Positions 8,504 through 48,867 of a DNA stretch of 64,000 nucleotides are shown piece by piece (positions within the stretch are counted from its first letter, which is position 1; every line of letters begins with the position of its first letter). This stretch comes from Aeromicrobium flavum. GTDB taxonomy: Bacteria > Actinomycetota > Actinomycetes > Propionibacteriales > Nocardioidaceae. Both the position numbers and the translations under genes were made by a program. The notes below the pieces were generated by a model. That model did not search any database. It was not told the DNA's origin and saw nothing but the letters and a program-made list of their open reading frames with translations. The stretch lies in assembly GCF_007992115.1 (NCBI RefSeq), contig NZ_BJZQ01000001.1:186001-250000 (forward strand). The letters run 5' to 3'.

Positions 8504-8543
8504 GATTTCGAGCCTAACGAAGCCGGCCAGCCCGTCCCGGGCT

Positions 8544-8616
8544 CGAGATGTGTAGCGAACGACACCTGATCGAGGCGGATTCGGCCTGATTCAGGTGCGT
8601 TTCGCTACACATCTCG
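8544..8616. repeat. Long intergenic palindrome 2
   Basis: Arms at 8544-8569 and 8591-8616 pair over 22 of 26 positions (16 bp beginning CGAGATGTGTAGCG, a four-base internal mismatch, then six more). The right edge reads GCTACACATCTCGCGCGC, which recurs with one change beside palindrome 4 near 22.66 kb. It lies between two tandem minus-strand genes. Confidence 0.8.
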
Positions 8617-8636
8617 CGCGCCATGGGCGGGTCGGG

Positions 8637-11155: not shown

Positions 11156-11191
11156 GACCCCATCATGTCACCGCGTCCCCGGGCCGCCCGA

Positions 11192-11629: not shown

Positions 11630-11649
11630 GGCCGCACGCTACCGCGCGA

Positions 11650-13950: not shown

Positions 13951-14025
13951 GAGGAGCTTTCGGTGGAGCCGCGGACGGCAGAGGTTCGGGGAGCGGGCTG
14001 GAGCGGTCGGTCGGGGGACCGGCCG

Positions 14026-14373: not shown

Positions 14374-14404
14374 CCCGCGAGTGTAACGGTCCTACGGTGG
14401 ATCC

Positions 14405-15373: not shown

Positions 15374-15511
15374 GCGGAGACGGTGATCGGGGGAGTGGGT
15401 GCGCCGGGTCGGGAGCGCCTCACGGCGCGTGGCCGCTCGTAGCGGCTGATGTTGGGACCCGGGGCTACCGCGACCCGGCGCACGCACCAGTTTAGACGAC
15501 GCGACCCAAGC

Positions 15512-16102: not shown

Positions 16103-16148
16103 GCGTTCGAGAGTAAACCCGCGCCCTCGACGCTGTCCGCAGGTCGGC

Positions 16149-17971: not shown

Positions 17972-18038
17972 ACCGTGATCTTAGGCACGATCGCAGGGGT
18001 TGGAGGGGGCGACACGCAGGGGGTGAGAGACTCGAGGG

Positions 18039-19100: not shown

Positions 19101-19101
19101 C

Positions 19102-32756: not shown

Positions 32757-33482
32757 TCAGGAAACCGCACCCTGAGCGCTCTGCCTGAGCAGCCGGTCGA
32801 AGAGTGGCGCCAGCTGCTCGTCGGCCGTGTCCGGGTGCTCCGGGTGCCACTGGATGCCGGTGATCGGCGCGCTCTCGTGCACGAGCGCCTCGACCACGCC
32901 GTCGTCGGCGCGCGCGGCGACGAGGAGTCCCCGGCCGAGCCGTTCGACGGCCTGGTGGTGCGAGCAGCGGACCTCTCGGCTCGCCTCGACCGCGGGGTGC
33001 AGGTGGGTGCCGACGAGGGTCACGCGGTGACGGGCGTAGTCGTCGTCACCCTCCTTGCGATGCAGGTGCGTGGTGGGCAGGTGGGGCACGAGGGTGCCGC
33101 CGAGTGCGACGTTGATCACCTGCAGGCCGCGGCACAGGCCCAGCAGGGGAGTGCCCGCCACGAGGCACGCACGGACGGCCGAGATGTGGGCCACGTCGGC
33201 CAGCGGCTCGTGATGACCTCCGTCGGGGTAGTCCGTCGGTCCGCCCCAGAACTCGGGGTCCACGTCCTCGCCGCCCATGAGGACCACGGCGTCCGCTCGG
33301 TCGACGGCCGTCGCGGTGGCCTCGGGAGGCAGATCGGACGAGGGCACCACGTCGACGACCCATCCCTGCCGGCGGGCGACGCGCAGGGCGGCGTCGTTGA
33401 GCCGGTCCAGCGAGTCCTGGTAGTCGGTGGCGTGGGGACGCTCGGTGCGCAGGTGCAGCACGGCGAGGCGGCGCTGGTTCAT
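32757..33482 (-). CDS. Gamma-glutamyl-amine hydrolase, PuuD-like (copy A)
   Basis: A 241-residue class I glutamine-amidotransferase-like hydrolase (peptidase C26). The nucleophile is Cys117 in LGLCRGLQVINV, the oxyanion GG is in VVLMGGEDVDP, and the His/Glu pair is in GIQWHPEHPD. PuuD relatives split the gamma-glutamyl amide of an oxidised amine. Copy A lies beyond the terminator that follows the aldehyde dehydrogenase and may be expressed less. Three such paralogues occur within 4 kb. Confidence 0.88.
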   Translation of the reverse strand: MNQRRLAVLHLRTERPHATDYQDSLDRLNDAALRVARRQGWVVDVVPSSDLPPEATATAVDRADAVVLMGGEDVDPEFWGGPTDYPDGGHHEPLADVAHISAVRACLVAGTPLLGLCRGLQVINVALGGTLVPHLPTTHLHRKEGDDDYARHRVTLVGTHLHPAVEASREVRCSHHQAVERLGRGLLVAARADDGVVEALVHESAPITGIQWHPEHPDTADEQLAPLFDRLLRQSAQGAVS

Positions 33483-33503
33483 CTGTTCTCCTCGGAGGGG
33501 AAG

Positions 33504-33533
33504 GAGGCCGGGGCTCCCCGCAGCCCCGGCCTC
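33504..33533 (-). terminator. Terminator after aldehyde dehydrogenase gene
   Basis: GAGGCCGGGGCT and AGCCCCGGCCTC form a 12-bp stem around a six-base loop in the 63-base gap between the aldehyde dehydrogenase and PuuD-like copy A. Confidence 0.7.
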
Positions 33534-33545
33534 ATACGACGACGA

Positions 33546-34889
33546 TCAGACGATCGTGCGGATCAGCTTCTTGTTGACGAACTCGTCCATGCCGTAGCGG
33601 CCCAGCTCGCGGCCGAAGCCGGAGCGCTTCACGCCGCCGAACGGCAGCTCGACACCGTCGGCGTCGACGCCGTTGACGAACACCATGCCCACGTCGAGCC
33701 GCTCGGCGACGCGGCGCGCCTGCTCGGCGTCGGGCGTGAACACGTAGGAGCCCAGGCCGTACGGCGTGTCGTTCGCCAGCTCGACGGCCTCGTCCTCCGA
33801 GCCGACCCTGAACACCGTCGCCACGGGACCGAAGAGCTCCTCGCGGAAGGCGGGGTTCTCCGGCGTGACGCCCGTCAGCAGGCCGACGGGGAAGAACGCG
33901 CCCTCGCGCTCTCCGGTCGTGTGCAGCTCCGCACCGGCGGCCACCGCCGCGTCGACCTGCTCGGCCAAGCGCTCCGCCGCAGTCACCGAGGACAGCGGGG
34001 AAGCGGGAGCGAGCTCGGTGAGCTTGTCCTTGAACGCGGCGACGAAGTCGTCGAAGAGCTCGTCGGTGACGATGAAGCGCTTGCCCGCGTTGCACGCCTG
34101 GCCGGTGTTGCCCAGGCGGGCCTGCGCCGCGGCGGTCACGGTGGCGTCGAGGTCGTCGGTGCCGAGCACGATGAACGGGTCGGACCCGCCGAGCTCGAGG
34201 ACGACCTTTTTGAGGTTGCGTCCGGCGATCTCGGCGACGGCGGCGCCGGCACGCTCCGAGCCGGTGAGGGAGACGCCCTGGACGATCGGCGAGGCGATCA
34301 TGTCGGCCACCTGGTCGTTCGTGGCGTAGACGTTGACGTAGGCGCCGTCGGGGAAGCCGGCCTCGGCGAAGATCGCCTCGATCGCGGCGGCCGACTCCGG
34401 GCACTGAGGCGCGTGCTTGAGCACGATGGTGTTGCCGACCGCAAGGTTCGGTCCGGCGAAGCGGGCGACCTGGTAGTACGGGAAGTTCCACGGCATGATG
34501 CCCAGCAGCACGCCCACGGGGCGGCGCCGGATCAGCGCGTCGCCGGTGCCGTCGAGCAGGTCGATGGGCTCGTCGGCGAGGAAGCTCTCGGCGTTGTCGG
34601 CGTAGTAGCGGTAGATCGCGGCGCTGAACTCCACCTCGCCCTTGGCCTCGTCGTGGGGCTTGCCCATCTCGCGGACGATGATGTCGGCCAGCTCGTCCGC
34701 CCGCTCCTCGTGGAGCTCGGCGACACGGGTGATGAGCGCGGCGCGCTCCTTCGGCTCGGTGGTCCTGCCCCAGGTCCGGTAGGCGGACGAGGCGCGCTCC
34801 AGCGCCGAGCTGATGTCGGCGTCGGTCGCGGTCGGGTAGGACTGCACCAGCTCGCCGGTGCTGGGGTCGTGGACGGCGTAGTCGGTCAT
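33546..34889 (-). CDS. Aldehyde dehydrogenase (succinate-semialdehyde / aminoaldehyde type)
   Basis: A 447-residue NAD(P)-dependent aldehyde dehydrogenase. Glu232 ([10 protein letters not shown]) and catalytic Cys266 ([11 protein letters not shown]) are present, with the Rossmann segment [16 protein letters not shown]. It resembles the SSADH subgroup whose relatives oxidise succinate semialdehyde or omega-aminoaldehydes. An AGGAAGG ribosome-binding site precedes the ATG at 34889. Between PuuD-like copies, it probably oxidises the aldehyde released by the P450 step or the gamma-glutamyl aldehyde. Confidence 0.9.
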
Positions 34890-34919
34890 GGGGGTGGGCC
34901 TTCCTTCGGTGGGTTGAGT

Positions 34920-35720
34920 TCAGTCTCTGACGGATTCACCGTGGCGCGCAGCAGCACACGCCTCGACGAAGCTGCCGAACAGCTGGAGGCGGGCGTCGGC
35001 CGGGCCGTCGTCGTCCTCGGGGTGCCACTGGACGCCGAGCGTCCAGCGCTCCGGATCCTCGACGCCCTCGACGGTGCCGTCGAGCGCGCGCGCGGCGGCG
35101 ACGAGCCCCGTGCCGACGACGTCGACCGCCTGGTGGTGGCCGGAGCGGCCGACGGTCGAGTCGGCGCCGAGGATCGCCCGCAGGCGGGTGCCGGGCTCGA
35201 TCTCGATCTTCTCGTCGAGGAACATCGGCTCGCCCGGGCCGCCGCGGTGGAGCCCGTAGTCCTCGATGTCGGGGATGATCGTGCCGCCGCGGTGCACGTT
35301 GATCAGCTGCGAGCCGCGACAGATGCCGAAGACGGGTCGATCGGCGGCCTCGGCGGCCTCGATGGCCGCGAAGGCGTCGTGATCGGCGCGGGCGTCGATG
35401 CCGTAGGAGTGGGGGACCGGCCCGTCGGTGGGTCCTCCGTAGCAGGAGGCGTCGATGTCGCCCCCACCCAGCAGCAGCAACCCGTCGAACCGGGCGGCCA
35501 CCGACGGATCGGGCAGCGGCGTGGACGTGTCGAGCAGCTCGAACGAGGCGCCGACCTCCACCAGCGTCCGCAGCGAGACCCGCGTGAAGCGGCGGACCAG
35601 GTCGGCCGTCTCCTCGGTCATGTCGGGGAAGTTCAGCGACACGAGGACGCCGATGTGCGCGATCGGCGACGCGGCGGATCGCTCGGGCATGACCTCCTCG
35701 ACGCGTACCTCGATGCTCAT
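34920..35720 (-). CDS. Gamma-glutamyl-amine hydrolase, PuuD-like (copy B)
   Basis: A 266-residue paralogue of copies A and C with nucleophile Cys134 in [24 protein letters not shown] and [11 protein letters not shown]. It is longer at the N-terminus (about 20 residues before the first strand). The ATG at 35720 overlaps the stop of copy C as ATGA, so B and C are translationally coupled and may form a heteromer or act on different amides. Confidence 0.88.
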
Positions 35721-36427
35721 CGCGACACCGCCTTCTTGTGCGCCCGCTCGACGAGGTCGGCGAACAGCGCCGCGTCCGTCGCGGAGGTGGCATGCCGGTC
35801 CTCCGGGTGCCACTGCACCGCGAGCACGTCGGCCGTGCGGTGCTCGACGGCCTCGATGACGCCGTCGGCGGCGGTCGCCGTGACGACGAGGTCCTCGGCG
35901 AGCCGGTCGAGCCCCTGGTGGTGGTAGGAGGACACGTCGATCCGCGTGGAGCCGACGGCCTGGCGCAGCCGCGAGTCCTCGAGGACGTCGACGTCGTGGA
36001 CCGCGTCGTGGTGACGCACGGAGGTCTCGGTGAGGTGCTGGTGCAGGGTGCCGCCGAGGGCGACGTTCAACACCTGCATCCCGCGACAGATCGCGAGCGC
36101 CGGGACGTCCGACGCCACGACCGCGCGTGCGGTCGCCAGGTCCAGGTCGTCCTGGAAGGCGACGACGCCGGCGATCTCCGCGACCGGCTCCTGTCCGTAG
36201 TGCTGCGGGTCCAGGTCGGCGCCGCCGGGCAGCAGCACGCCGTCGAACCGGTCCAGGCGCAGCGCGAGGCCGTCGCCGGGGTCGGCCGCGGGGCCGTGCA
36301 CGATCGCCGGCTCTCCGCCGGCGGCGTACACGGCCTCGCAGATCGCCTCGGACGCCAGGGTGGCGCTGAAGCGCAGGATCGGGACGGTGATGCACCGCTG
36401 CCCGATCACGGCCACGAGCGGCCGCAC
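35717..36427 (-). CDS. Gamma-glutamyl-amine hydrolase, PuuD-like (copy C)
   Basis: A 236-residue member of the same family with nucleophile Cys114 in LAICRGMQVLNVALGG, LLPGGADLDPQHYG and LAVQWHPEDRH. It starts with GTG at 36427, one base after the stop of the solute-binding-like gene, and its own stop overlaps copy B. Residues around the active cysteine match copy A better than copy B. Confidence 0.88.
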   Translation of the reverse strand: MRPLVAVIGQRCITVPILRFSATLASEAICEAVYAAGGEPAIVHGPAADPGDGLALRLDRFDGVLLPGGADLDPQHYGQEPVAEIAGVVAFQDDLDLATARAVVASDVPALAICRGMQVLNVALGGTLHQHLTETSVRHHDAVHDVDVLEDSRLRQAVGSTRIDVSSYHHQGLDRLAEDLVVTATAADGVIEAVEHRTADVLAVQWHPEDRHATSATDAALFADLVERAHKKAVSR

Positions 36428-36428
36428 G

Positions 36429-37151
36429 TCAGACCTCCACGTCGTCGTCGAACGGGTACTCCAGGGTCGGCAGCTCGGCCTGCCACACCTTCCGGTGGCG
36501 ACCGTCCGCGATGACGCGCGCCAGGGCGCCGTCGATCTCCTCGCGCACGTCGCCGCGCTCCTTCGACACGCCGATGCCCCAGCGGTTGCCGGTCTTGACG
36601 GTGAAGGCCAGCTCGAAGCGCGGGTCGGACTCGCCGAGCGGGACGAAGACGACGTCGTCGTCGATGACGGCGTCGACCTCCTCGCTCTCCAGCGCCGCGA
36701 GCATGTCGGCGTACACGTCGCCGGAGCCCCCGGAGCCGAACGGCACCGGGATGGCGCCCGTGAAGGTCTGGGCCAGTGCCATGTTGGTGCTGTTCTCGAT
36801 GGCCGCGACCTTGCGCCCGACGAGGTCCTCCGGGCTGCTGATCCCCGAGCCGCGCCGGATCAGGACGCCCTCGTGGAAGACCGCGTACGGACGGGTGAAG
36901 TCGACCTGCTCGAGGCGGCTGGGGATGATGCCCTGGCCGCACAGGACCGCGTCGGCGGCACCGGACTGCGCGGCGGGGATCATCTCCGTCCAGGGGACGC
37001 AGACCCACTCGATCGGGCGGCCGAGCTCGGCGCCGATCAGCTCGGCGACGGCCGGCTCGAAGCCGGTGCGGCGACCGGTCGAGGGGTCGAGCAGGCCGAA
37101 GAGCGGGGGCGCGTCGGCGTCGAGGCAGGCGAGGCGAAGGGGCGTGGTCAC
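36429..37151 (-). CDS. Family 3 solute-binding-like protein without signal peptide
   Basis: A 240-residue periplasmic-binding-protein fold (SBP family 3: TGFEPAVAELIGAELG, DAVLCGQGIIPSRLEQVDFTRPY, DLVGRKVAAIENSTN, DAVIDDDVVFV). It starts directly at the domain with GTG 37151 overlapping the GS stop as GTGA, so no signal peptide or lipobox can be encoded. No ABC permease or ATPase gene is nearby. It may therefore bind a pathway compound in the cytoplasm as a sensor or carrier, or act as an enzyme of the cyclohexadienyl-dehydratase type. Confidence 0.82.
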   Translation of the reverse strand: MTTPLRLACLDADAPPLFGLLDPSTGRRTGFEPAVAELIGAELGRPIEWVCVPWTEMIPAAQSGAADAVLCGQGIIPSRLEQVDFTRPYAVFHEGVLIRRGSGISSPEDLVGRKVAAIENSTNMALAQTFTGAIPVPFGSGGSGDVYADMLAALESEEVDAVIDDDVVFVPLGESDPRFELAFTVKTGNRWGIGVSKERGDVREEIDGALARVIADGRHRKVWQAELPTLEYPFDDDVEV

Positions 37152-38533
37152 GGGCAGTCCTCCCAGTAGGTTGCGTGCTCCCAGTCGGTGACGGCGCCGC
37201 AGAAGCGGGCCCACTCGTCGGTGTGGAAGTCGATCAGCAGTCGCGACAGCTCGTCGCCGAACGTGTTCTTGACGACGGGGTCGGCGTCGAACGCGGTGAT
37301 CGCGTCGCCGAGGGTCAGCGGCAGCTTGCCGAAGCGGCTCTCGTCGACGGAGTCGTAGGACGAGCCGACGGTCGGAGCGCCGGGGTCGGTCTCGTTCTTC
37401 AGGCCGTCCTCGCAGGCGGCGATCATCGCGGCGTGCGACAGGAACGGGTTGACCGCCGAGTCGGGCAGCTTGTACTCGAGCCGGCCGACCGTGGACAGCC
37501 GCACGGTGCAGGTCTTGTTGTCCAGGCCCCAGTCGATCTTCGAGGGCGCGAACTGACCGGAGTCCCAGTAGCGCTTGTAGGAGTTGACGGTCGAGCCGTT
37601 GATCAGCATCAGGCCGGCCGAGTGGCTCAGCAGGCCGCCGAGGGCGTGCTTGCCGAGGTCGGTCAGGTGGAGGTCCTCGCGGCCCGGCTCGGCCAGGACG
37701 TTCTCCTCGCCGCGCCACAGGCTGAAGTTGTGGTGGCAGCCGTTGCCCATCATGCCGCTGGCGGGCTTGGGCATGAAGCTGGCCTCGATGTCCAGCTCGC
37801 GGGCGACCTGCTTGCAGATCTGGCGGTAGGTCACGAGCCGGTCGGCGGTCAGGTCGGCCTTGTCGTACATGAAGTTCAGCTCGACCTGGTACTCGTCCTC
37901 GTAGTCGCCCTCGACCATGTCCAGGCCCATCGCCTGGGCGTAGTCGATGACCTTCGTGACGATCGCGCGGTTCCGCTCGAGGTGCTCGATGTGATAGGCC
38001 GGGCTGGATCCGGGACGGAAGCTGGCGCGGAGGTCCTTGCCCTTCCAGGTCATCTCCGGCTCGCAGCCGGTGCGCATCTCCAGGCCGGTGCGGGCCGTGA
38101 ACTCCTCGTGCGTGCGGCGCAGCAGGCCGCGGACGTCGGAGGCGTACGGATCGCCCGCGCGCTCGGGGAGGTGGTCGGGCTCGTAGAGGCGGCAGAACAC
38201 CCGGGCGAACGTGGTGTCCCACGGCAACACCGAGAAGGTCTCGAGGTCGGGGATCGCGGTGTACTCCGCGGCGTTGACGCCACCGCCGAGCAGGACGCCC
38301 TCACGGGTGGACTGCAGGTTCGCGATGGCGGTGCGGTGCTGCTGCACCCCCTTGACGGCGACGCGCTCGAAGTGGCGGGCCGGCATGACCTTGCCGATGA
38401 CGCGACCGGTGATGGTCACCGTCTGCAGGTAGACGTACTTGACGCCGTGGTCCGTGATGGTCTCCAGCGCCGCCGTGAGGTCGGGACTGGAGGCGTTGAG
38501 TTGACGATGCTCGTCGAGGGCGGTCGTGCTCAT
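37148..38533 (-). CDS. Glutamine synthetase-like gamma-glutamyl-amine ligase
   Basis: A 461-residue GS-superfamily protein (GlnA3/PuuA-like). The metal and ATP sites are recognisable in GCEPEMTWKGK, MVEGDYEDEYQVELNF, NGCHHNFSLW and the NSYKRYW segment, with a C-terminal VGRLEYKLPDSAVNPFL. The usual adenylylation loop tyrosine is not evident. Members ligate glutamate to amines such as putrescine, ethanolamine or isopropylamine. The P450-ferredoxin-reductase genes directly upstream are what link it to amine breakdown. GGAGGA precedes the ATG at 38533. Confidence 0.9.
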   Translation of the reverse strand: MSTTALDEHRQLNASSPDLTAALETITDHGVKYVYLQTVTITGRVIGKVMPARHFERVAVKGVQQHRTAIANLQSTREGVLLGGGVNAAEYTAIPDLETFSVLPWDTTFARVFCRLYEPDHLPERAGDPYASDVRGLLRRTHEEFTARTGLEMRTGCEPEMTWKGKDLRASFRPGSSPAYHIEHLERNRAIVTKVIDYAQAMGLDMVEGDYEDEYQVELNFMYDKADLTADRLVTYRQICKQVARELDIEASFMPKPASGMMGNGCHHNFSLWRGEENVLAEPGREDLHLTDLGKHALGGLLSHSAGLMLINGSTVNSYKRYWDSGQFAPSKIDWGLDNKTCTVRLSTVGRLEYKLPDSAVNPFLSHAAMIAACEDGLKNETDPGAPTVGSSYDSVDESRFGKLPLTLGDAITAFDADPVVKNTFGDELSRLLIDFHTDEWARFCGAVTDWEHATYWEDCP

Positions 38534-38547
38534 GGTGTTCCTCCGGG

Positions 38548-39771
38548 TCAGGCGGTCGGGACGAGGGTCGAGAACTGCTCGCGCAGCTCCCGTTGACGGG
38601 CAGGGGGAAGATTGACGGCGACGTTGCCGACGAGGTGTCCGTCGCGCCGGTAGGCGATCAGGGCACCGGCCGGGAGACCGCTCAGGTCTCCCTCCTCGAC
38701 GGAGTGCTCGTCGGCCAGCGCGGGGGAGCCGTAGCTCTGCAGGCGCAGGTCGAACTGGTCGCTCCAGAACGAGGGGATCGGGGCGAACGAGGTGTCGGCC
38801 GGCTCCTCGCCGCGCAGCTGCGCGACGAGGGTGGCGGCGGCACGCTTGGCCGTGTCCGTGGGGATCGACCAGTGCTCGACGCGCCGCGGCACGTCGTCGA
38901 AGAGCGGGTTGGGGAAGCGCGCGATGTCGCCGACGGCGACGACGCGCTCGGCGCCGACGACGGCGAGGTGGTTGTCGGTGAGGACGCCGTCCGTCAGGTC
39001 GAGACCGTTGCCGTCCAGCCACTCGGTGTTGGCGACGGAGCCCGCGGCCTCGATCACGACGTCGGCCGGGAGCTCCTCGCCGGTGCCGAGCAGGACACCG
39101 TCGACCCGGTCCTCGCCGGTGCAGCCGATGATCCAGGTGCCGAGGCGGAACTCGATGCCGCGCGCCTCGTGGTGGCGCTGGATCGCGCCGGCGAGGTCTG
39201 CGCCGAGGACGCGCTCCATCGGGCGTCCCGCGGGTTCGACGACGGTGACCCGGTGCCCGAGCTTGGTGAGGGTGGCCGCGGCCTCGCACCCGATGAATCC
39301 GGCGCCGACGACCACGACGCGGCGGGGCGTCGCCAGCTCGGACCTCAGGCCGAAGCAGTCGTCGACCGTGCGCAGCACGTGGCGTCCCGCGGCGGGACCG
39401 GGGAGCGACAGTCGGCGCGGGCGCAGTCCGGTGGCGACGACCAGACCGTCCCACGCGAACGTCGATCCGCTCTCCGTGGTGACCGTGCGGCCCGCGAGGT
39501 CGGCGCTCACGACCGCGTCGCCGAGGACGAACTCGACGTCCGCGGTGCTCGCGCGGCGCCGGAACGCCAGCTTCTCCGCGAGCTCGATCGCCGTGGCCGG
39601 GTCGGCGCCGGCCAGGACGTCCTTGGACAACGGCGGCCGGTTGTAGGGGAGGTGGTCCTCCGCGCCGATCACGGTGATCGGACCGGCGTGGCCGGCGGAG
39701 CGCAACTGCTCCGCGGCACGCAGGCCGGCCATCGAGGCGCCCACGACGACGACGCGCTGGTCGGAGGTCAT
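38548..39771 (-). CDS. NADH:ferredoxin reductase (P450 electron donor)
   Basis: A 407-residue FAD/NAD oxidoreductase of the ferredoxin/rubredoxin reductase family. The FAD motif VVVGASMAGLRAAEQL is at the N-terminus, the NAD motif VVVGAGFIGCEAAATL in the middle, and VVAVGDIARFPNPLF closes the FAD site. It starts one base after the ferredoxin stop and would pass electrons from NADH to that ferredoxin and on to the P450. Same arrangement as morC in mycobacterial morpholine clusters. Confidence 0.92.
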   Translation of the reverse strand: MTSDQRVVVVGASMAGLRAAEQLRSAGHAGPITVIGAEDHLPYNRPPLSKDVLAGADPATAIELAEKLAFRRRASTADVEFVLGDAVVSADLAGRTVTTESGSTFAWDGLVVATGLRPRRLSLPGPAAGRHVLRTVDDCFGLRSELATPRRVVVVGAGFIGCEAAATLTKLGHRVTVVEPAGRPMERVLGADLAGAIQRHHEARGIEFRLGTWIIGCTGEDRVDGVLLGTGEELPADVVIEAAGSVANTEWLDGNGLDLTDGVLTDNHLAVVGAERVVAVGDIARFPNPLFDDVPRRVEHWSIPTDTAKRAAATLVAQLRGEEPADTSFAPIPSFWSDQFDLRLQSYGSPALADEHSVEEGDLSGLPAGALIAYRRDGHLVGNVAVNLPPARQRELREQFSTLVPTA

Positions 39772-39772
39772 G

Positions 39773-39961
39773 TCAGGCCCCGAGCAGGATCGCCTGGACG
39801 GGGCAGACGTCGGCGGCCTCTTCGACGTACTCCTCGAGCTCGTCCGAGGGCTCGCCCTCGTACTCGAGGTGGCCGTCGTCGTTGATGCGGAAGACCTCGG
39901 GCGCGGCGATCGCGCACTGGCCGTGGTCCTCGCAGAGGGTCATGTCGACCGTGACCTTCAT
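39773..39961 (-). CDS. [3Fe-4S] ferredoxin
   Basis: A 62-residue monocluster ferredoxin with Cys10, Cys16 and Cys53-Pro. Residue 13, where a [4Fe-4S] ferredoxin would have a second cysteine, is His (CEDHGQC), so a [3Fe-4S] cluster is expected. This type serves as redox partner of bacterial P450s. Located between the P450 and its reductase, it matches MorB in size and cluster type. Confidence 0.93.
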   Translation of the reverse strand: MKVTVDMTLCEDHGQCAIAAPEVFRINDDGHLEYEGEPSDELEEYVEEAADVCPVQAILLGA

Positions 39962-39997
39962 GGTGACTCCTGGGGTGGTGGGGGATGGACGGGAGGG

Positions 39998-41200
39998 TCA
40001 GTTGCCGGGGGTGAAGGCGATGGGCAGGCGCATCGGGCCGGTGTTGCCCGAGTCGGGCAGCCACTCCGAGCCCGGCAGCAGCTGCAGGTCACGCATCTTG
40101 CGAGCGAGGAGGGGAAGCGCCTCGCTCATGTCCGACCGGGCGACGAAGTGCCCGAGGCAGTGGTGCGCACCGCCACCGAAGCCGTAGTGCGGCTTGCGCT
40201 CGGCGGCGATGTCGAAGCCGCCCTCGAAGACGCGCGGGTCGGTGCCGGCGGACTCGGTGTAGAGGTGCAGGGTCGTGCCGGCCTTCAGCTCGACGCCCTC
40301 GTACTCGAAGTCCTCGAGCACCTCGCGCGTCACCCAGCGGACGGTCGGGTTGACGCGCATGACCTCCTCGACCGCGGCGCGGCCGAGCTCGGGCTGCTCG
40401 GCGAGCAGCGCCCACTGGTCGGGGTTCTGCGCGAAGGTCTGCATCGCGAGCCCGAGCTGGTTGCGGGTGGTGTCGAAGCCGCCGAAGATCAGCAGCACCA
40501 TCGCGTCGCGCAGCTCGGTGTCGGAGAGCCGGGCGTCGTCGCCGTGGGCGGCGTTGACCAGCGCGGTGACGAAATCCTCGCGCGGGTTCGCCCGGCGATC
40601 GGCGATCAGGTCGTCGCAGTAGGCGTAGAGGTTCTTCAGGGCCGCCTCGATCTCGGGGAGGTCCTCGCGGATCGTGACGCCGAGCGCCAGGCCGATGGTC
40701 ACCGACTCGCGGGCGATGATCGGCCACTCCTCCTCGGGGATGCCGAGCATGATCGCGATGACGCGGGCGGCGTAGGGCTCGGCGAACTCCGAGACGAATT
40801 CGCACTGGCCGGGCTGCTCGAAGTTGTCGATCAGCTCGGTGGCGAGGGCCTGGAACCGCGGGACGAGTCCGCCGATCAGCTTGGGGGAGAAGGCCGGGTT
40901 CATCAGCCGGCGCAGGCGGTGGTGCTCGTCGCCCTCCTTGTTGAGGATCCAGCTCGCGAACCACTCGGCGAACGGGCCCTCGGTGACGCCGTGGTGCGCC
41001 GGCCACGAGACGCTGCCCTGCCGCAGCTTGGGGTGCTTCAGCAGGCGGCTGACCTGCTCGTACCGCAGGACGGCGATGCCGTACGGCGTGGTGGCGTACC
41101 AGCTCTCCTCCCGCGCCGCGTGGACCTCGGGACTCGTGATCGAGAAGTCCGGGGCGTTGACGTCAAGGGCCGGGATCGTGGTCGAACCGGGAGCCTGCAT
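39998..41200 (-). CDS. Cytochrome P450 (putative amine monooxygenase)
   Basis: A 400-residue soluble bacterial P450. The haem-thiolate Cys348 is in FGGGAHHCLG, the I-helix reads FGGFDTTRNQLG with the acid-threonine pair, and the K-helix ExxR is in AAVEEVMRVNP. The ATG at 41200 has a GGAGGT ribosome-binding site four bases upstream; the longer GTG start at 41212 would overlap it. Followed by ferredoxin, reductase and GS-like genes in the mor/pip order; CYP151-type oxidation of a cyclic secondary amine is inferred from that order, not from a sequence search. Confidence 0.92.
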   Translation of the reverse strand: MQAPGSTTIPALDVNAPDFSITSPEVHAAREESWYATTPYGIAVLRYEQVSRLLKHPKLRQGSVSWPAHHGVTEGPFAEWFASWILNKEGDEHHRLRRLMNPAFSPKLIGGLVPRFQALATELIDNFEQPGQCEFVSEFAEPYAARVIAIMLGIPEEEWPIIARESVTIGLALGVTIREDLPEIEAALKNLYAYCDDLIADRRANPREDFVTALVNAAHGDDARLSDTELRDAMVLLIFGGFDTTRNQLGLAMQTFAQNPDQWALLAEQPELGRAAVEEVMRVNPTVRWVTREVLEDFEYEGVELKAGTTLHLYTESAGTDPRVFEGGFDIAAERKPHYGFGGGAHHCLGHFVARSDMSEALPLLARKMRDLQLLPGSEWLPDSGNTGPMRLPIAFTPGN

Positions 41201-41241
41201 GGGTACCTCCACCAGAAGAGCGGGCTGTCAGTGGAGCCAAC

Positions 41242-41269
41242 ACTCTAATAATGGAGGTATTCATGTCAA
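41242..41269 (-). promoter_or_regulatory. Promoter of the P450 catabolic operon
   Basis: On the minus strand TTGACA (41269-41264) is followed after 16 bases by TAGAGT (41247-41242), 42 bases before the P450 start. The surrounding 60 bases are much richer in A and T than the neighbourhood. It is the best sigma-70-like promoter in the window. Confidence 0.65.
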
Positions 41270-41283
41270 GGGTTTTTTGTGAT

Positions 41284-42021
41284 CTAGATCCCATTCCTTG
41301 GAACGTCGGTCAGAATCAGCACCCACCCGTTGCCCAGCGGGAGCTCGGCGGAGCTCAGTACGGTGCCGCCTTCGACCGCCGACCCGTCGGCGGGGATCGC
41401 GGGCAGCCGCGACCCCTGGACCCAGCGCCCGCTGTTGGCGGCCACGACCCGGCGATCCGCGGTGACGACGACAGCCTCCCGGGCGCTGTGGCGCAGCACG
41501 GCAAGGATCCGGCGCTCGACCTCCTCGAACAGGACGTCCGCACCGACGATGCCCACGAACTCGCCGTCGATCGTCACCGGCACGGACACCGTGACGATGT
41601 AGAGCTCGGAGCCGGAGTAGTCGACGTACGGGCCGTAGGTGGCGCGCGTGCGTCCGCCGGCGGGGAACTCGAACCACTCCATCTCGACGTAGTCGTAGAC
41701 GTCGATGCTGGTGCGGTCGAAGTTCAGCCGCAGCCGCGAGGTGCGGCCGTCGTGCTGCTGCCACCAGAGCATGTAGCGATCGAGGCCGTCGACGAGGCCG
41801 GGGGCGCTCACGAAGCCGATGCCGACCTGCATCGGGTCGGCCGTGAGCTGCTCGAGGATCGACGACTGGGCCTCCATCAGGTCCGACTCGGACCAGGCGC
41901 CGGGGCGATGGGTCGCGCGGATGCGCTCGGCGAGCAGCTCGAGGCGGGCGAAGACCGGTTCCAGGGCGGCGGACGTGTCACGGGCGAGATCGTCGCCGGT
42001 GGCGGGGATCGCTGCGGTCAT
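41284..42021 (-). CDS. Soluble Cache-domain sensor protein
   Basis: A 245-residue protein with helical N-terminus (SAALEPVFARLELLAERIR) and a PDC/Cache-like domain: VGIGFVSAPGLVDGLDRYMLWWQQ, YGPYVDYSGSELYIVTVSVPV, GEFVGIVGADVLFEEVERRIL. Such domains normally sense small molecules outside the cell, but there is no signal peptide or membrane helix and no output domain. Its ATG overlaps the GntR stop (ATGA), so it is made with the regulator. It may bind the inducer or act as a partner of the regulator. Confidence 0.78.
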   Translation of the reverse strand: MTAAIPATGDDLARDTSAALEPVFARLELLAERIRATHRPGAWSESDLMEAQSSILEQLTADPMQVGIGFVSAPGLVDGLDRYMLWWQQHDGRTSRLRLNFDRTSIDVYDYVEMEWFEFPAGGRTRATYGPYVDYSGSELYIVTVSVPVTIDGEFVGIVGADVLFEEVERRILAVLRHSAREAVVVTADRRVVAANSGRWVQGSRLPAIPADGSAVEGGTVLSSAELPLGNGWVLILTDVPRNGI

Positions 42022-42779
42022 GCGCGGTCCTCCTTCGAGGTGAGGTGGAGGTGGAGATCGGTGAGTCGGCGGAGGTTCCTGGCGACATGGGCCTCGGCGA
42101 GCCGGCGGGCTCGCTCGGCGTCCTCGGCCACGACGGCGGTGGCGATCTCGTGGTGCTCCGCGACGACGCCCTCGAGGTCGGCCCGCGGGCCGGGGGTGCC
42201 GTCCGCCCCGTCGGACGGCAGCCACAGCATCCCCGACACCTCGGCCTGCAGGCTGACCTCGTGCCGCGTCAGCCGCTGGGACTGTGACGCGACGGCCAGT
42301 TCGATGTGGAACCGGCAGTCGGCGCGGATGCGGTCGCCGGTGTTCGTCGCCGACCCGAGCTGCTCGGTGAGCGTGAACAGGCGGCGGACGTTCGGGGCGG
42401 CTGCACGCTCGGCGGCCAGCTTCGCGGTGTGGCCCGCGACGGCGGCGTGCTCGTCGACGAGGTCGCGGATGGCGGTGGGGGTCATGGCGACGAGCCGCTG
42501 GCGCAGCCGGTCCAGGGGAGGGGACTGGGGGCGCTGGACGAAGGAGCCGCCGTGGCGGCCTCGCTTGGTCACGAGGAGACCCTCGTCGCGCAGGATCGCC
42601 AGCGCGTCGCGCATCGTCATGGGCGCCACGCCGAACTGCGCGGCCAGCTCGGTCTCGGCCGGCAGTCGCTCGCCGTCGGCCAGCAGGCCGAGGTGGATGG
42701 CCTCGGTGATCCTGCGGACGACTTCGTCCGCCCGACCGCCCGAGGCGGAGGGGGAGAGCAGTGGCGTGAGGCCCGACAT
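42018..42779 (-). CDS. GntR/FadR-family (FCD) transcriptional regulator
   Basis: A 253-residue regulator with an N-terminal winged helix (residues about 15-75: VVRRITEAIHLGLLADGERLP, AAQFGVAPMTMRDALAILRDEGLL) and a C-terminal all-helical FCD ligand domain. GGAG precedes the ATG at 42779. Placed between the P450 operon and the divergent permease, it is the obvious local regulator of both. The ligand is probably a substrate or intermediate of the amine pathway. Confidence 0.9.
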   Translation of the reverse strand: MSGLTPLLSPSASGGRADEVVRRITEAIHLGLLADGERLPAETELAAQFGVAPMTMRDALAILRDEGLLVTKRGRHGGSFVQRPQSPPLDRLRQRLVAMTPTAIRDLVDEHAAVAGHTAKLAAERAAAPNVRRLFTLTEQLGSATNTGDRIRADCRFHIELAVASQSQRLTRHEVSLQAEVSGMLWLPSDGADGTPGPRADLEGVVAEHHEIATAVVAEDAERARRLAEAHVARNLRRLTDLHLHLTSKEDRA

Positions 42780-42860
42780 GGGAGCTCCTGGCGGATCGGC
42801 GGGAGGGACGACGCCATGTTAGGGCCCTGTTAACTCTGACGAGGAGTTTTGTTTCAGCCC

Positions 42861-42890
42861 TTGACCCTCAATCCAACATAATTGTAGGTT
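42861..42890 (+). promoter_or_regulatory. Putative promoter of the APC permease
   Basis: TTGACC at 42861-42866 and TAGGTT at 42885-42890 are 18 bases apart, 55 bases upstream of the permease ATG, in a locally AT-rich stretch. The region between the GntR and permease starts (165 bases) is the likely control region for both. Confidence 0.45.
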
Positions 42891-42944
42891 TTGTCCGTTC
42901 GGTGACTCAGATCACACCGCGTCCCCCAAGAACAGGACCAGGGA

Positions 42945-44450
42945 ATGGCGACAGAAACCCCCACGTCGGGCTCAGCCGACGGCTACTACGACTTCCACGA
43001 CCACGACGACGCGGCCCACCTCCACGCACTGGGCTACCAGTCGGAGTTCAAGCGGGACATGAGCCCGTGGGCTAACTTCTCGCTCGGGTTCACGTACCTC
43101 TCGCCCGTCGTGGGCGTCTACACGGTCTTCGCGTTCGCCCTCGCCACCGGCGGCCCGCCGATGATCTGGGCCTTCGTGCTCGCGGGTCTCGGCCAGCTGA
43201 TGGTCGCCCTGATCTTCAGCGAGGTCGTCGCCCAGTTCCCCGTGGCGGGCGGCGTCTACCCCTGGGCGAGGCGCCTGTGGGGCCGCAAGTACGCCTGGAT
43301 GACCGGCTGGGTCTACATCATCGCGCTGCTCGTGACGATCTCCTCGGTCGTCTACGGCGCCGGACCCTTCATCGCCTCCGTCTTCGGCTTCACGCCGTCG
43401 GTCGACACGACGATCGCGTGCGCCCTGGGCCTGCTCGTCCTGGCCACGATCATCAACTTCATGGGCACCTCGGTGCTCGCGAAGGCCGCGATCATCGGCT
43501 TCACGGCCGAGCTCGTCGGCGCCCTGGTCGTCGGCGCCTGGCTGCTCATCGCGCACCGCGAGCAGAGCATCACCGTCCTGTTCGACACGTTCGGCACCGA
43601 GGGCGACAGCGGCAGCTACCTGCCGGCGTTCGCCGCGGCCGCCCTCATCGGCGTCTACCAGTACTACGGCTTCGAGGCGTGCGGTGACGTCGCCGAGGAG
43701 GTCAAGGACCCGGGTCGACTCATCCCGAAGGCCATGCGCCAGACCATCTACATCGGCGGAGCCGCGGCCACGTTCGTCTGCCTCGCCCTGGTGCTCTCGG
43801 TCACCGACATCGGCGCCGTCGTCTCCGGCGAGGTCACCGACCCGGTCAGCGCCGTCCTCGAGGAGGCGTTCGGCACCGTCGGCGCCCGTGCGGTGCTGGT
43901 CATCGTGCTCCTGTCGTTCCTGTCCTGCGCGATGAGCCTGCAGGCCGCCGCGTCCCGCCTGCTCTACTCGTACGGTCGCGACGACATGATCATGGGCAGC
44001 TCGCTGCTGAAGAAGTTCTCGCCCACGCGCCACATCCCGCCGTACGCGCTGGTCGTGTCGGCGATCGTCCCGGCCATCATCGTGATCGGCTCCCGCGTCT
44101 CGGAGAACGCGATCACCAAGATCATCAGCTTCGCGACCCTGGGCATGTACCTGGGCTTCCAGATGGTGATCCTGGCCGCCCTGCGGGCGCGTCTGAAGGG
44201 CTGGGTGCCCAGCGGCAAGTACACGCTCGGAGCGTGGGGCCTGCCGGTGAACATCATCGCCCTGGTCTACGGCGTCATCGCGATGGTGAACATGGCGTGG
44301 CCGCGGACCCCGGACGCCGCCTGGTACGACAACTGGATCGTCGCACTGTCCGGTGTGATCGTGGTGGCCGTCGGCCTGGTCTACATGGCCATTCACCCGC
44401 TGCACGACCGCAGCACCGCCCCCTACGACGACGCCATCCCCAAGAAGTGA
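42945..44450 (+). CDS. APC-family amino acid/amine permease
   Basis: A 501-residue transporter with about twelve membrane segments. MSPWANFSLGFTYLSPVVGVYT is the opening of the amino-acid-polyamine-organocation family, and YYGFEACGDVAEEVKDPGR is its conserved central motif. Closest recognisable group is the GABA/choline-type (BAT1/Uga4-like) branch. It is divergent from the regulator and probably imports the substrate or product (an amine or omega-amino acid) of the adjacent operon. A strong hairpin follows its stop. Confidence 0.9.
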   Translation: MATETPTSGSADGYYDFHDHDDAAHLHALGYQSEFKRDMSPWANFSLGFTYLSPVVGVYTVFAFALATGGPPMIWAFVLAGLGQLMVALIFSEVVAQFPVAGGVYPWARRLWGRKYAWMTGWVYIIALLVTISSVVYGAGPFIASVFGFTPSVDTTIACALGLLVLATIINFMGTSVLAKAAIIGFTAELVGALVVGAWLLIAHREQSITVLFDTFGTEGDSGSYLPAFAAAALIGVYQYYGFEACGDVAEEVKDPGRLIPKAMRQTIYIGGAAATFVCLALVLSVTDIGAVVSGEVTDPVSAVLEEAFGTVGARAVLVIVLLSFLSCAMSLQAAASRLLYSYGRDDMIMGSSLLKKFSPTRHIPPYALVVSAIVPAIIVIGSRVSENAITKIISFATLGMYLGFQMVILAALRARLKGWVPSGKYTLGAWGLPVNIIALVYGVIAMVNMAWPRTPDAAWYDNWIVALSGVIVVAVGLVYMAIHPLHDRSTAPYDDAIPKK

Positions 44451-44769: not shown

Positions 44770-45999
44770 ATGACCCGACGGGACGAGCGCCGCCAATTCG
44801 GCGAGATCTCCAGACTGCCCAGTGGCCGGTTCCGGGCGCGGTACGCGGACCCCGAAGGGCGGACGCATGCCAACGGTGTTCGCGTTCGTCATACGGCGCC
44901 AATCACGTTTGAAAGTCGGGCTGATGCCGAGGCTTGGCTCGTTGATGAGCGGCGCATCGTCTCGAGTGGTGAGTGGTCGTCTCCCGGGGTTCGTGCAGCG
45001 GTGCGGCGTACGCCCGGATTGACGTTGGGGGAGTACGCGCCGCGCTGGCTGGCCAACAGGCGGGTCAAGGGGCAGCCTCTGGCGGACCGCACGCGAGACC
45101 ACTACCAGGACCTTATGGACCGCTTCATTCTGCCGTTCTTCGGGCGGACGCCCCTTCGAGAGATCACTCCGGAGATGGTGAGCCACTGGTACGACACCGC
45201 AACTCCGGATCGCCCTACGTACCGGGCTCATTCCTACTCGTTGCTGCGCGCGATCTTGCGCACGGCGGCAGATCCAGCGAAGAACAACGGCCGTCCGCTG
45301 ATCCCCTTCAACCCGTGCGGCATCTCCGGTGGCGGCTCATCTGGAGCGAAGCGGCGGGTGAGTCCGGCGACGGCCGAGGAGATCGCGGTCATCGTTGCGA
45401 ACATGCCCGATCGCCATCGCTTGATGATCCTCTTGGCCGACGGGTGCGCCCTCCGTTTCGGCGAGCTGGCGGAACTGCGTCGTCACGACATCGACGTGAA
45501 GAACGCGGTGATCAGGGTCCGTCGAGGCGTCGTTCGCTCACGCTCGGCCGGAGTGGTGGCGAAGGCCCCGAAGAGCGACGCCGGCATCCGTGACGTCCCG
45601 ATCCCACCCGACATCGTTGACGCTGTAGCGGAGCATCTACGTGAGTTCGCCGCGCCCGGCCGTGATGGGCTGGTCTTCCCAGGCGCGAACGGCAATCATC
45701 TGTCGCCAAGTGCGTTCTACGGCAAGGTCTCTAGGAAGCGCCGCGGCAAGCCTGACACCACCGGATACGGCTGGTATGAAGCACGAAGAATCGCTGGCCG
45801 GCAGGACCTCAGGTTCCACGATTTGCGCCATGGCGCTCTGACCGAAGCTGCACGCCACGGCGCAACGCTCGCCGAACTCATGGCTCTTGGCGGCCACTCT
45901 ACGAGCCAAGCTGCCATGCGCTACCAACAAGCGGCGTCAGATCGACTCGCGCAACTCGCTCGCATGCGCGCGGAAGCTCGAGGATGGAGCGCGAGCTGA
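44770..45999 (+). CDS. int: Tyrosine-type site-specific integrase
   Basis: A 409-residue phage/ICE-type integrase. An arm-binding N-terminal domain (RFRARYADPEGR) and a SAM-like core-binding domain (residues about 84-190) precede the catalytic domain, which carries Arg229 (CALRFGELAEL), His350 and Arg353 (HDLRHG), His376 (GGHST) and nucleophile Tyr385 (MRYQ). All five catalytic residues are present. Adjacent to the tRNA-Val remnant, it is the enzyme that integrated this element. The ATG at 44770 follows GAGGTGAGG. Confidence 0.95.
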   Translation: MTRRDERRQFGEISRLPSGRFRARYADPEGRTHANGVRVRHTAPITFESRADAEAWLVDERRIVSSGEWSSPGVRAAVRRTPGLTLGEYAPRWLANRRVKGQPLADRTRDHYQDLMDRFILPFFGRTPLREITPEMVSHWYDTATPDRPTYRAHSYSLLRAILRTAADPAKNNGRPLIPFNPCGISGGGSSGAKRRVSPATAEEIAVIVANMPDRHRLMILLADGCALRFGELAELRRHDIDVKNAVIRVRRGVVRSRSAGVVAKAPKSDAGIRDVPIPPDIVDAVAEHLREFAAPGRDGLVFPGANGNHLSPSAFYGKVSRKRRGKPDTTGYGWYEARRIAGRQDLRFHDLRHGALTEAARHGATLAELMALGGHSTSQAAMRYQQAASDRLAQLARMRAEARGWSAS

Positions 46000-47145: not shown

Positions 47146-48867
47146 TCACGTGAGCGATAGAGACACCCGCCCGCGCTCCAAGTCCACCTCCAGCACCCGA
47201 ACTGTGACGGCTTCGCCGATCTCCACGACGTCGGATGGATGCTCGACGCGACGGTTGGCAAGCTGGGAGATGTGGATCAGGCCGTCGACCTCGCCAAGGT
47301 CGACGAATGCGCCAAAGTTGGTGATCGTCTTCACCGTGCCAGTAACGACCGACCCGACGCCGAGTGCCTCGAGGGCGGCCCTTCGTCGCTCGGCTCGGGA
47401 GGGCTGACTCGGGGCGTCGGCAGCCTCGGGGGCCGGAGTGTGCGTTGCAGGTGCAACATGAGCCGCTGACGCGTGGACGGCAGCCCGGTACTTCGAGGGC
47501 AGGTTGCCGACTACTTCGAGCGCAAATCCGCAGTTCTCGTGCATGTAACGGTCATATGCCAGGTCGGCGAGGACCTGGTCGTTGACGAGATCGCCCTCTT
47601 CCTGTCGGAACTTCCTGCTCTTGTCGCCGCGGAACGAGAGCCAGTTGAAGCTTGTCTTCACGTAGTAGCCATCGCTCACGAGGATCTTTGCGTGAGTGTC
47701 GTCGACTCGGACCACTGCAAGGCGCTGCGATCGACCGGCGGCTTCATGGAGCATCCGTAGCGCACCTTGGTCGGACTTCGAGTTGTCGCCGAATCCCCAG
47801 AAGATGGTGACGTCCGCGTTGCGGGCAAGCTGCTCGAGACGCCCCACGAACTGACGGCTTACGACGGACCCGGTGATCCATGGGCTGATGATGAGGAGTC
47901 GCCGCTTGGGTGCGGTCATCGCGTCGTCCAGCCAGCCGGGATGGTCCGCCATTGAGAGCCAGCGGATCGCGGCGCGGTCGAGCTGGTCCGAATCGCCGAG
48001 CGCGTTCGTGCCTTCGTCGTCGGTGATCGCCGATTGGATGGCGATCACCTCGTCGCGGGAAAGGCGCGGACCCGGCTCATCGGCCGCTTCATAGCTGACT
48101 TCGCTGGCCGACGTGATCCCAAGCTTCTTGACGGCGTCCACGTCCTCGAGCGCCGCCAGGTGAGGCTCGCTCCACTGGCCGTCAACTTCCACCCCAAGGC
48201 GGACAGTGCTGGAGTCCAGGTCGCGGTAGACGAGCAGGATTGCATCTCTGAAGAAGTTCCTGCTCTCGGTCACTCCAGTGACGCCGAGAACTCTGAAGTC
48301 AGAGCTTGAGTAGCCCTCAATCGCAGCAGTGATGGCCGGGACGGTCAGCTCTGCCTTCTCGACATCGACCCCGCTTCGCTGCGGCAGGAGGATCGCGGTG
48401 GATGCCTTCGCGGCTCCAGCCCTGGCAAGCGAGTTGCGGCGCCACTCCGTCACGGTTCGCGTCAGCCGGTCGTAGACGACTTGGATCGTCGTTGACTTTG
48501 GTCGTCGCACTTGTGCATCGCGGGCCGCCTCGAGCCCATTCGGGAGCAGGCTCAGGATCCGAGGTTGTCCCGGGCCGGGCGGGCGGTAGTCGACGAACTC
48601 GGAGCGCAGGAGGGCTGCCACCGTGCTCGCGGTGTCTTCCGGGGTCAGGCCCATGAAGAGTTCAAGGTCCTCGACTGAGTCGATGCCGTTGAGCAGCGCG
48701 GCGAGGGCGTACTTCTGTGCGGCGTCGATGTCCTCGATCTCCTCGGCCAGCACGTCGACCGTGAGGACGGAGGTCGGGATGTAGCAGGGCTCCGCTGCCA
48801 GCAGCGTGTGCCCCGGAAGTGCGTGGGCGTGACGCCTGGCAGCGTCGGCGAAGATATCGCGGCTCAC
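47146..48867 (-). CDS. PLD-family nuclease fused to S1 domain (Mokosh MkoB-like)
   Basis: A 573-residue protein. A long N-terminal region of unknown fold is followed by a phospholipase-D-superfamily domain (about residues 300-450) with one H-x-K motif, His392 and Lys394 in THAKILVSDGYYVKTSFNW, and a C-terminal S1 RNA-binding domain (505-573: GSVVTGTVKTITNFGAFVDLG). One HKD copy implies a dimeric nuclease. The GTG at 48867 overlaps the stop of the kinase-helicase gene (GTGA). Kinase-helicase plus PLD protein is the composition of type I Mokosh anti-phage systems; the S1 fusion is unusual to me. Confidence 0.8.
   Translation of the reverse strand: MSRDIFADAARRHAHALPGHTLLAAEPCYIPTSVLTVDVLAEEIEDIDAAQKYALAALLNGIDSVEDLELFMGLTPEDTASTVAALLRSEFVDYRPPGPGQPRILSLLPNGLEAARDAQVRRPKSTTIQVVYDRLTRTVTEWRRNSLARAGAAKASTAILLPQRSGVDVEKAELTVPAITAAIEGYSSSDFRVLGVTGVTESRNFFRDAILLVYRDLDSSTVRLGVEVDGQWSEPHLAALEDVDAVKKLGITSASEVSYEAADEPGPRLSRDEVIAIQSAITDDEGTNALGDSDQLDRAAIRWLSMADHPGWLDDAMTAPKRRLLIISPWITGSVVSRQFVGRLEQLARNADVTIFWGFGDNSKSDQGALRMLHEAAGRSQRLAVVRVDDTHAKILVSDGYYVKTSFNWLSFRGDKSRKFRQEEGDLVNDQVLADLAYDRYMHENCGFALEVVGNLPSKYRAAVHASAAHVAPATHTPAPEAADAPSQPSRAERRRAALEALGVGSVVTGTVKTITNFGAFVDLGEVDGLIHISQLANRRVEHPSDVVEIGEAVTVRVLEVDLERGRVSLSLT

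Follow-up and report, generated by a model that had tools for sequence, protein, structure and literature searches.

A probable mor/pip-type amine catabolic operon in Aeromicrobium flavum with apparently cytosolic Cache and solute-binding proteins

The window analyzed here is a stretch of 64,000 nucleotides from Aeromicrobium flavum (GCF_007992115.1, contig NZ_BJZQ01000001.1, positions 186,001 to 250,000 of the forward strand; host genome 3.09 Mb), and its subject is a row of eleven minus-strand genes running from 42779 to 32757 with a divergent permease gene beside it. An original prediction, made from the sequence alone, had placed here an amine catabolic locus joining a cytochrome P450 system to gamma-glutamylation, akin to the mycobacterial mor/pip clusters. 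All genes that it named are present with open reading frames (ORFs): the P450, ferredoxin, reductase and glutamine synthetase (GS)-like ligase follow each other in the predicted order, and the GntR regulator and APC permease were recovered as well. Three PuuD-like hydrolases and an aldehyde dehydrogenase (ALDH) are also there, but not in the order proposed, since the ALDH gene sits between the second and the third PuuD-like gene. Two genes of the row had been missed, one for a Cache-domain protein, overlapping the GntR gene by 4 bp, and one for a solute-binding protein of the SBP_bac_3 family (SBP), overlapping the GS-like gene by 4 bp. The locus is probably a further member of the known mor/pip kind, of which the Cache and SBP parts have apparently been overlooked until now. 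The features are as follows:

42945..44450, + strand: APC-family permease, probable amine importer (PF13520, 166.6 bits)
42865..42896, - strand: imperfect palindrome between the GntR and APC genes, candidate operator (matrix score 23.1)
42018..42779, - strand: GntR/FCD transcription regulator (PF00392 and PF07729)
41284..42021, - strand: Cache-domain protein (PF02743, 39.8 bits with a cut-off of 45; PF22673, 36.9 bits with a cut-off of 27)
41238..41261, - strand: palindromic element 5' of the P450 gene, candidate operator (matrix score 22.4)
39998..41212, - strand: cytochrome P450, CYP151-like (PF00067; DTT and FGGGAHHC motifs)
39773..39961, - strand: ferredoxin, [3Fe-4S]-type (62 aa, three cysteines)
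38548..39771, - strand: FAD ferredoxin reductase (PF07992, 203.7 bits; PF14759)
37148..38533, - strand: GS-like enzyme, probable gamma-glutamylamide synthetase (PF00120, 226.8 bits; best solved relative 9qur)
36429..37151, - strand: SBP_bac_3 protein (PF00497, 77.7 bits)
35717..36427, - strand: PuuD-like C26 hydrolase 1 (PF07722, 182.9 bits)
34920..35720, - strand: PuuD-like C26 hydrolase 2 (PF07722, 120.1 bits)
33546..34889, - strand: aldehyde dehydrogenase, nearest to succinic-semialdehyde types (PF00171, 421 bits)
32757..33482, - strand: PuuD-like C26 hydrolase 3, extra copy (PF07722, 141.1 bits)

The intergenic gaps from GntR to PuuD3 are -4, 71, 36, 1, 14, -4, 1, -4, 30 and 63 bp, and intact signature motifs were found in the P450, in the ALDH and in each of the three C26 hydrolases. 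Relatives of the row were sought in a pattern-based scan of one genome per species (84,980 species), and the gene surroundings of the best 80 of 393 P450 relatives were compared, with relatives of the row genes counted at 45 bits or more; the counts are lower bounds because for 16 of the 80 loci the stretch covers less than 19 kb. A relative of the GS-like gene was found near the P450 in 76 loci, of the SBP gene in 69, of GntR in 67, of Cache and of the ferredoxin in 65 each, of the APC permease in 63, of PuuD1 in 62, of PuuD2 in 53, of the reductase in 52 and of the ALDH in 48. This linkage is beyond chance, and a similar row occurs in Mycolicibacterium, Nocardioides, Streptomyces, Actinomadura and other genera. 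The window would contribute one more genome to the mor/pip kind, with the wider gene row laid out over many species, so that its regulator, sensor-like and hydrolase genes can be taken into account in studies of the pathway.

In Mycolicibacterium and Nocardioides, P450s encoded in loci that share most of this row are up to 84% identical to that of the window, among them those of M. vaccae (83%), M. chlorophenolicum (82%) and M. austroafricanum (81%). In a tree of 92 rows the window P450 forms a group of three with N. daeguensis and a metagenome-assembled genome of the Nocardioidaceae (support 97/91), and this group adjoins 20 rows, 19 of them Mycobacteriaceae, the 23 standing together (100/98) inside a larger GS-linked group; all other 22 members of the 23-row group have GS, SBP and Cache genes nearby. 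The closest solved structures are 3p3l (252 bits) and 3p3o (250 bits), both of which we take to be AurH, while the next one scored 178 bits. AurH is classed as CYP151A in the available text of PMC7369989. A terpene or fatty-acid P450, which would have spoken against the original prediction, was rejected on the search scores, with terpene P450 models far lower (pentalenolactone synthase 103 bits against the 700 needed), and on gene linkage; the tree, consisting only of relatives of the window P450 and including no terpene or fatty-acid enzyme, is not a test of this point.

The gene order of the mor/pip kind is present in the window, with ferredoxin and reductase and then a GS-like gene downstream of the P450, and a GntR gene is linked to them; the mycobacterial clusters consist of the same five components. 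In the available text of PMC9477822, which deals with these clusters (MorA AAV54064.1, PipA AAD28344.1), recombinant MorA with its partners oxidized morpholine and pipA was induced on piperidine. The bioI and pipA loci of Gulosibacter molinativorax, proposed there for azepane and with P450s 52–53% identical to PipA and MorA, likewise cluster genes for a P450, a ferredoxin, a reductase and a GS. Both the gene row and the P450 relatives fit the proposed mor/pip type, and on this indirect evidence the mor/pip reading is the best supported one, the P450 being a probable member of the CYP151 kind.

Of 98 genomes (the own one and those of its genus, family and order), 5 gave P450 matches at E 1e-60 or better, the own genome among them; another, L009, keeps the genes from P450 to PuuD and has Cache and GntR on the opposite strand. 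For the P450s of L010–L012 (52–56% identity) neither GS nor other row genes were matched within 20 kb. The P450 occurs in 34 of 297 genomes of the Mycolicibacterium genus group at 1e-90, and a plasmid search with it matched 14 records at 1e-50. Many mycobacterial loci are without the reductase, some also without the ferredoxin, and the GS gene then starts 14–244 bp after the P450. Compared to the nearest mycobacterial loci (L021–L027), the window adds the same-strand ALDH and the third PuuD-like gene, while Cache and SBP are common to both. The stretch of Mycolicibacterium chlorophenolicum (L025) has a second GS/SBP/PuuD set around 2499–3215, upstream of the main operon within the same 21 kb. 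Alphaproteobacterial P450 relatives (L015 at 9925–18965, L085, L089, L094–L096, L098 and L099; also L017 at 2055–10176) carry two tandem GS-like genes, and these stretches, of which L095 and L099 are short, yielded neither a Cache nor an SBP relative.

Against solved structures the GS-like protein scored 209.9 bits with the glutamate-methylamine ligase 9qur, 177.3 bits with true GS and 166.5 bits with 7cql, presumably a GMAS-type amine ligase. It is nearest to an amine ligase rather than to an ammonium GS, and activity with amines is predicted. In an alignment of the window protein with 25 of 56 non-redundant orthologues (n = 26), residues E158, E160, E212, E218, H267, R321, R345 and E353 are invariant. 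Position 328, which we take to be a flap residue, is phenylalanine in 26/26, as compared to glutamate in the true GS 8ool (GYEAP) and tryptophan in two methylamine ligases. The enzyme is a probable gamma-glutamylamide synthetase.

The SBP gene directly follows the GS-like gene in 66 of 68 loci, at -7 to +44 bp and with an overlap in 41, the exceptions being L090 and L093, where it lies 4.2 kb away. A search with its profile through 293 genomes of the order produced four matches of 375–394 bits, all with the P450 row (own genome and L134–L136), and the next match had 108 bits. Among the window protein and 47 of 63 non-redundant orthologues (n = 48), a hydrophobic N-terminus was found in none, as judged by hydropathy only and not by a signal-peptide program; the start codon overlaps the GS stop codon and the frame upstream of it runs into the GS gene. 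The SBP is without a recognizable signal peptide and apparently cytosolic, unlike the extracytoplasmic solute-binding proteins. Its AlphaFold2 (AF2) model (predicted local distance difference test, pLDDT, 93.1) has the fold of glutamine-, arginine-, glutamate- and opine-binding proteins (Z 24–27), and two residues that align with ligand-type positions of AncQR, R79 and D165, are invariant (48/48), as are C71, G72, Q73, E94 and N123. The SBP probably binds an amino acid or a gamma-glutamylamide in the cytosol, the latter being guessed as ligand because a gamma-glutamylamide is an N-substituted glutamine.

The Cache gene is tied to the regulator in a similar manner: it comes directly after GntR in 65 of the 65 loci that have both, with a spacing from -13 to +114 bp and an overlap in 26, and the adjacency is kept where the pair has moved to the strand opposite the P450. 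Outside the P450 row the pair is more widespread, as a profile search through 293 genomes of the order found relatives of the Cache protein in 45. Among 20 of these regions that were inspected, L134–L136 are P450 rows (two of them from the genomes of L028 and L020), and in 19 a Cache domain is preceded by a GntR gene at a distance of no more than 150 bp; L147 has an extra tandem Cache copy 743 bp off. In the remaining region, L145, two GntR-Cache fusions of 548 and 515 aa are encoded at 6636–8282 (+) and 10563–12110 (-), each a single chain with both domains; their Cache halves were recognized by the profile (163.5 and 145.0 bits) and by BLAST, with no Pfam match at 1e-5. The neighbors in five Cache regions without P450 include SBP_bac_8 genes (L138, L142, L143 and L150) and a class-III aminotransferase gene (L147).

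Among the window protein and 51 of 63 non-redundant orthologues (n = 52), a hydropathy of 1.6, the only measure applied, was passed within the first 45 residues by a single Cache sequence (1.66) and anywhere by 14, in 12 of them in a conserved strand region at about 140–160. The Cache protein is likewise without a recognizable signal peptide and apparently cytosolic. By sequence profile its first match is PctA, with McpX lower, while Foldseek with its AF2 model (pLDDT 94.8) ranked CqsR (serinol, ethanolamine), TlpQ (histamine), MkcA, McpU (putrescine) and PctD first. This amine-first order is suggestive only, because the profile prefers PctA and the VIA-align scores lie within one unit of the amino-acid sensor CtaA (17.9), which is among the first fifteen rows (Z 18.9–17.9, 190–232 residues, root-mean-square deviation 3.5–4.2 Å); the likeness of the model to the amine sensors CqsR, TlpQ, McpU and PctD is one of fold only.

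The ligand pocket was compared to the amino-acid motif dCache_1AA, [YFWL]x4[RK]xW[YFW]..[YFW]..D, in which, according to the available text of PMC11237719, the Arg/Lys, the first Tyr and the Trp bind the carboxyl group and the second Tyr and the Asp the amino group. The window protein does not match this motif, having M at the [RK] position. In the 52 sequences Y109 is present in 52, R or K at 114 in 3 (M in 39), W116 in 49, F/Y117 in 52, Y/F/W132 in 52 and D162 in 52, and all positions other than [RK] are kept together in 49/52, so that the amino-group half of the motif is retained while the carboxylate-binding Arg/Lys is missing in 49/52. Across the 20 inspected regions all Cache sequences (23/23) keep D134 and D162, position 109 is variable, and in the two fusions K and Y occupy positions 114 and 116, respectively; this variation at 109, 114 and 116 suggests that some of the relatives may bind another ligand. 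On the strength of the 65/65 adjacency, the fusions and an amino-group half without the carboxylate residue, the Cache protein probably senses amines in the cytosol as a partner of the GntR regulator. With the dCache_1 sensors CqsR, TlpQ, McpU, PctD and PctA it shares the fold and most of the pocket motif; these, however, are extracytoplasmic domains of membrane receptors, whereas the window protein is soluble and encoded beside GntR, to which relatives are fused.

A wider reading would make GntR/FCD and Cache a widespread cytosolic amine-sensing unit, serving P450-glutamylation here and polyamine- or GABA (gamma-aminobutyrate)-type catabolism elsewhere, with the SBP acting on a gamma-glutamylamide in the cytosol; a periplasmic-type sensor domain would then have turned into a soluble subunit that binds the ligand for a transcription regulator and can detach from it. 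We put this joint reading, together with its evolutionary part, at slightly less than an even chance. If the Cache protein is the sensor of GntR, a cytosolic role would be added to domains described as extracytoplasmic sensor modules in the available text of PMC12889525, and a ready amine biosensor would result. In the literature searched, which left out most subscription journals, no description of the Cache or SBP of mor/pip-type loci was found, nor anything relevant on cytosolic Cache domains or GntR regulators with Cache. Less probable, at somewhat under one chance in three, is a role of both proteins other than sensing, as ligand buffers or carriers, or, for the SBP, as an enzyme derived from a binding protein like cyclohexadienyl dehydratase. 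The SBP gene is indeed coupled to GS and not to the regulator, AncCDT-1, described as the precursor of that dehydratase, is among the SBP relatives, and the invariant C71-G72-Q73, E94 and N123 could be catalytic; yet the ligand-type R79 and D165 are equally invariant, and the two GntR-Cache fusions point to a regulatory role of Cache. The GntR-linked Cache and the dedicated SBP appear to be cytosolic and merit experimental work.

Two candidate operators accompany the regulator. The palindrome at 41238–41261 lies just downstream of a TTGACA and has the consensus tAA.acTCTA.TTcTAGAGTATTT; its core TCTA-N4-TAGA is present in 28 of 81 P450 upstream regions and in none of 68 GntR upstreams, 60 APC upstreams and 240 coding fragments. 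The matrix of this site exceeded 9 in 38/81 P450, 33/60 APC and 14/68 GntR upstreams as compared to 6/1620 shuffles, with its best window score (22.4) at the palindrome itself. The matrix of the second element exceeded 9 in 46/68 GntR, 38/60 APC and 20/81 P450 upstreams and in 2/1360 shuffles, and 42865–42896 (23.1) is its sole site above 8 in the window. Both matrices were trained on the same upstream regions that they score, and the sites show conservation rather than binding, because neighboring upstream regions overlap, shuffling preserved nothing but the base composition, and the loci are related to one another. A single motif shared by the two places was rejected, as the P450 matrix gives only 9.8 at 42865–42896, and two different regulators may act at them.

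All three PuuD-like proteins carry the C26 signatures CRG and QWHPE. No ORF in the 80 loci has PuuD3 as its best match, which suggests that the third copy is a local addition. The best listed model for the ALDH is the GabD equivalog NF006915 (444.7 bits, under the cut-off of 730), and ALDHs 70–71% identical to it adjoin binding-protein genes of ABC transporters in the Cache regions L142, L143 and L150; the binding protein of L142 is nearest to YdcS, below the cut-off. The genome also encodes a GabT (597.8 bits, cut-off 506.65). GabT, the succinic-semialdehyde dehydrogenase (SSADH) type of the ALDH and its relatives beside transporter genes make a C4 substrate such as pyrrolidine, converted to GABA, our first guess. 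The best NCBIfam match of the APC permease is 'permease, urea carboxylase system' (228.6 bits, under the cut-off of 740).

Taken together, the locus is likely a mor/pip-type amine catabolic operon, with cyclic or alkyl amines as the predicted food. The APC permease would import the amine, and the P450 with its ferredoxin and reductase, judging from the published activity of MorA and PipA, would oxidize the carbon adjoining the nitrogen; the carbinolamine formed from a cyclic secondary amine would open to an amino-aldehyde. By adding glutamate to the freed amino group, the GS-like enzyme would block closure to the cyclic imine, upon which the ALDH could oxidize the glutamylated aldehyde to the acid and the PuuD enzymes, by analogy to Puu, could free glutamate and an omega-amino acid. 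In the case of pyrrolidine the latter would be GABA, to be converted to succinate by GabT and the SSADH-type ALDH. GntR would control the P450 promoter, possibly as a repressor, through the palindrome located there, with the Cache protein as its putative cytosolic amine sensor, and the cytosolic SBP would bind a glutamate-type ligand, perhaps the gamma-glutamylamide. The Puu pathway of Escherichia coli shares the logic of gamma-glutamyl protection, aldehyde oxidation and PuuD hydrolysis, with the difference that in the window the aldehyde would be made by the P450 system.

Several observations weigh against this reconstruction. The GS-like, ALDH and three PuuD-like proteins all fall below the curated NCBIfam cut-offs, the PuuD-like ones reaching 79, 50.5 and 51.7 bits with the PuuD equivalog NF008471, which demands 266. 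Positions 340 and 355 of the GS-like protein, arginine in methylamine ligases, are lysine in 20/26 and arginine in 6/26 sequences, and E353 is retained although it would correspond to 'Glu357' of PMC11335346, in the available text of which amine ligases have lost the flap residue 'Glu357' and Asp50'; this is either a misfit or a matter of different numbering. No PuuD relative occurs in 12 of the 64 long loci. The ALDH is not constant either, with relatives in 48 of the 80 loci, of which 20 reach at least 50% identity, and none of the nearest mycobacterial loci L021–L027 has an ALDH gene on the same strand.

An inverted order of the first steps, in which the GS-like enzyme would make a gamma-glutamyl-N-alkylamide from a primary amine and the P450 would oxidize the amide, ring amines not being substrates, is unlikely, although it matches the Puu and isopropylamine (Ipu) routes, both of which proceed via gamma-glutamyl amides. 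The glutamine-type fold of the SBP, with a gamma-glutamylamide as its possible ligand, and the YdcS-like transporter gene near the Cache relative in L142 would agree with it. However, an unopened secondary ring amine is, by general chemistry, a poor GS substrate, for which reason the P450 would be needed first, and the tested P450 relatives act on free cyclic amines in the available text of PMC9477822. Very improbable is a natural-product or detoxification locus with a terpene, fatty-acid or polyketide P450 that merely resembles an amine operon, since relatives of GS, PuuD, APC and GntR accompany the P450 in most of the 80 loci and no biosynthetic genes were found in the window's row by gene calls and Pfam, even though the P450 kind has been reused in biosynthesis, as seen with two ectoine-cluster P450s of Streptomyces in the tree, and the polyketide enzyme AurH, of class CYP151A, is presumably its nearest solved relative.

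These ectoine-type clusters lie on Streptomyces plasmids (L018 at 2860–12128, L019 at 1–9120) and combine ectA, ectB and ectoine synthase with an adenylation enzyme, a carrier protein and a diaminopimelate decarboxylase; the product looks like an oxidized-ectoine natural product. Their P450s (about 50% identity), accompanied by ferredoxin and reductase, are placed by the tree with a GS-linked group from Arthrobacter, at the end of a long branch (1.28).

A row related to that of the window is found in the xpl region of plasmid pGKT2 of Gordonia sp. KTR9 (L013), where FCD-GntR (47%), Cache (37%), P450 (68%) and GS (69.3%) occur in the same order. The window P450 is 67.8% identical to this second P450 of the plasmid, presumably Cyp151C, which falls into a 9-row group (100/94) with Nocardioides, Millisia and Mycolicibacterium, its long row leaving its place unsure. 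Unlike in the window, a native ferredoxin and reductase were not found between P450 and GS; instead, the GS sequence breaks off at about residue 397 and is joined in frame to a reductase (814-aa ORF; PF00120 at 133–394, PF07992 at 401–556), followed by a flavodoxin-P450. These presumably represent two components of the RDX pathway, the GS-XplB fusion and XplA. Indest et al. reportedly described Cyp151C, XplR and the GS-XplB fusion on pGKT2, and Poupin et al. are said to have treated PipA and PipR. The RDX genes may have been inserted into a row of the window's kind, which would be the suggested origin of the plasmid's regulator, Cache gene, second P450 and GS. For the GS part within 12491–19502 of pGKT2, the (incomplete) PLSDB table lists no separate coding sequence.

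A mobile origin of the operon itself was considered and rejected: the G+C content is 71% left of 44600 and 63% from there to the window end, and tRNA genes were not found in the window. Just right of the APC permease lies a gene for a phage-type integrase (44770–45999, PF00589), and an integrated mobile element probably lies beside the operon. In this low-G+C stretch a 607-aa protein (47146–48969, -), with no further Pfam match at 1e-5, carries a C-terminal S1 RNA-binding domain.

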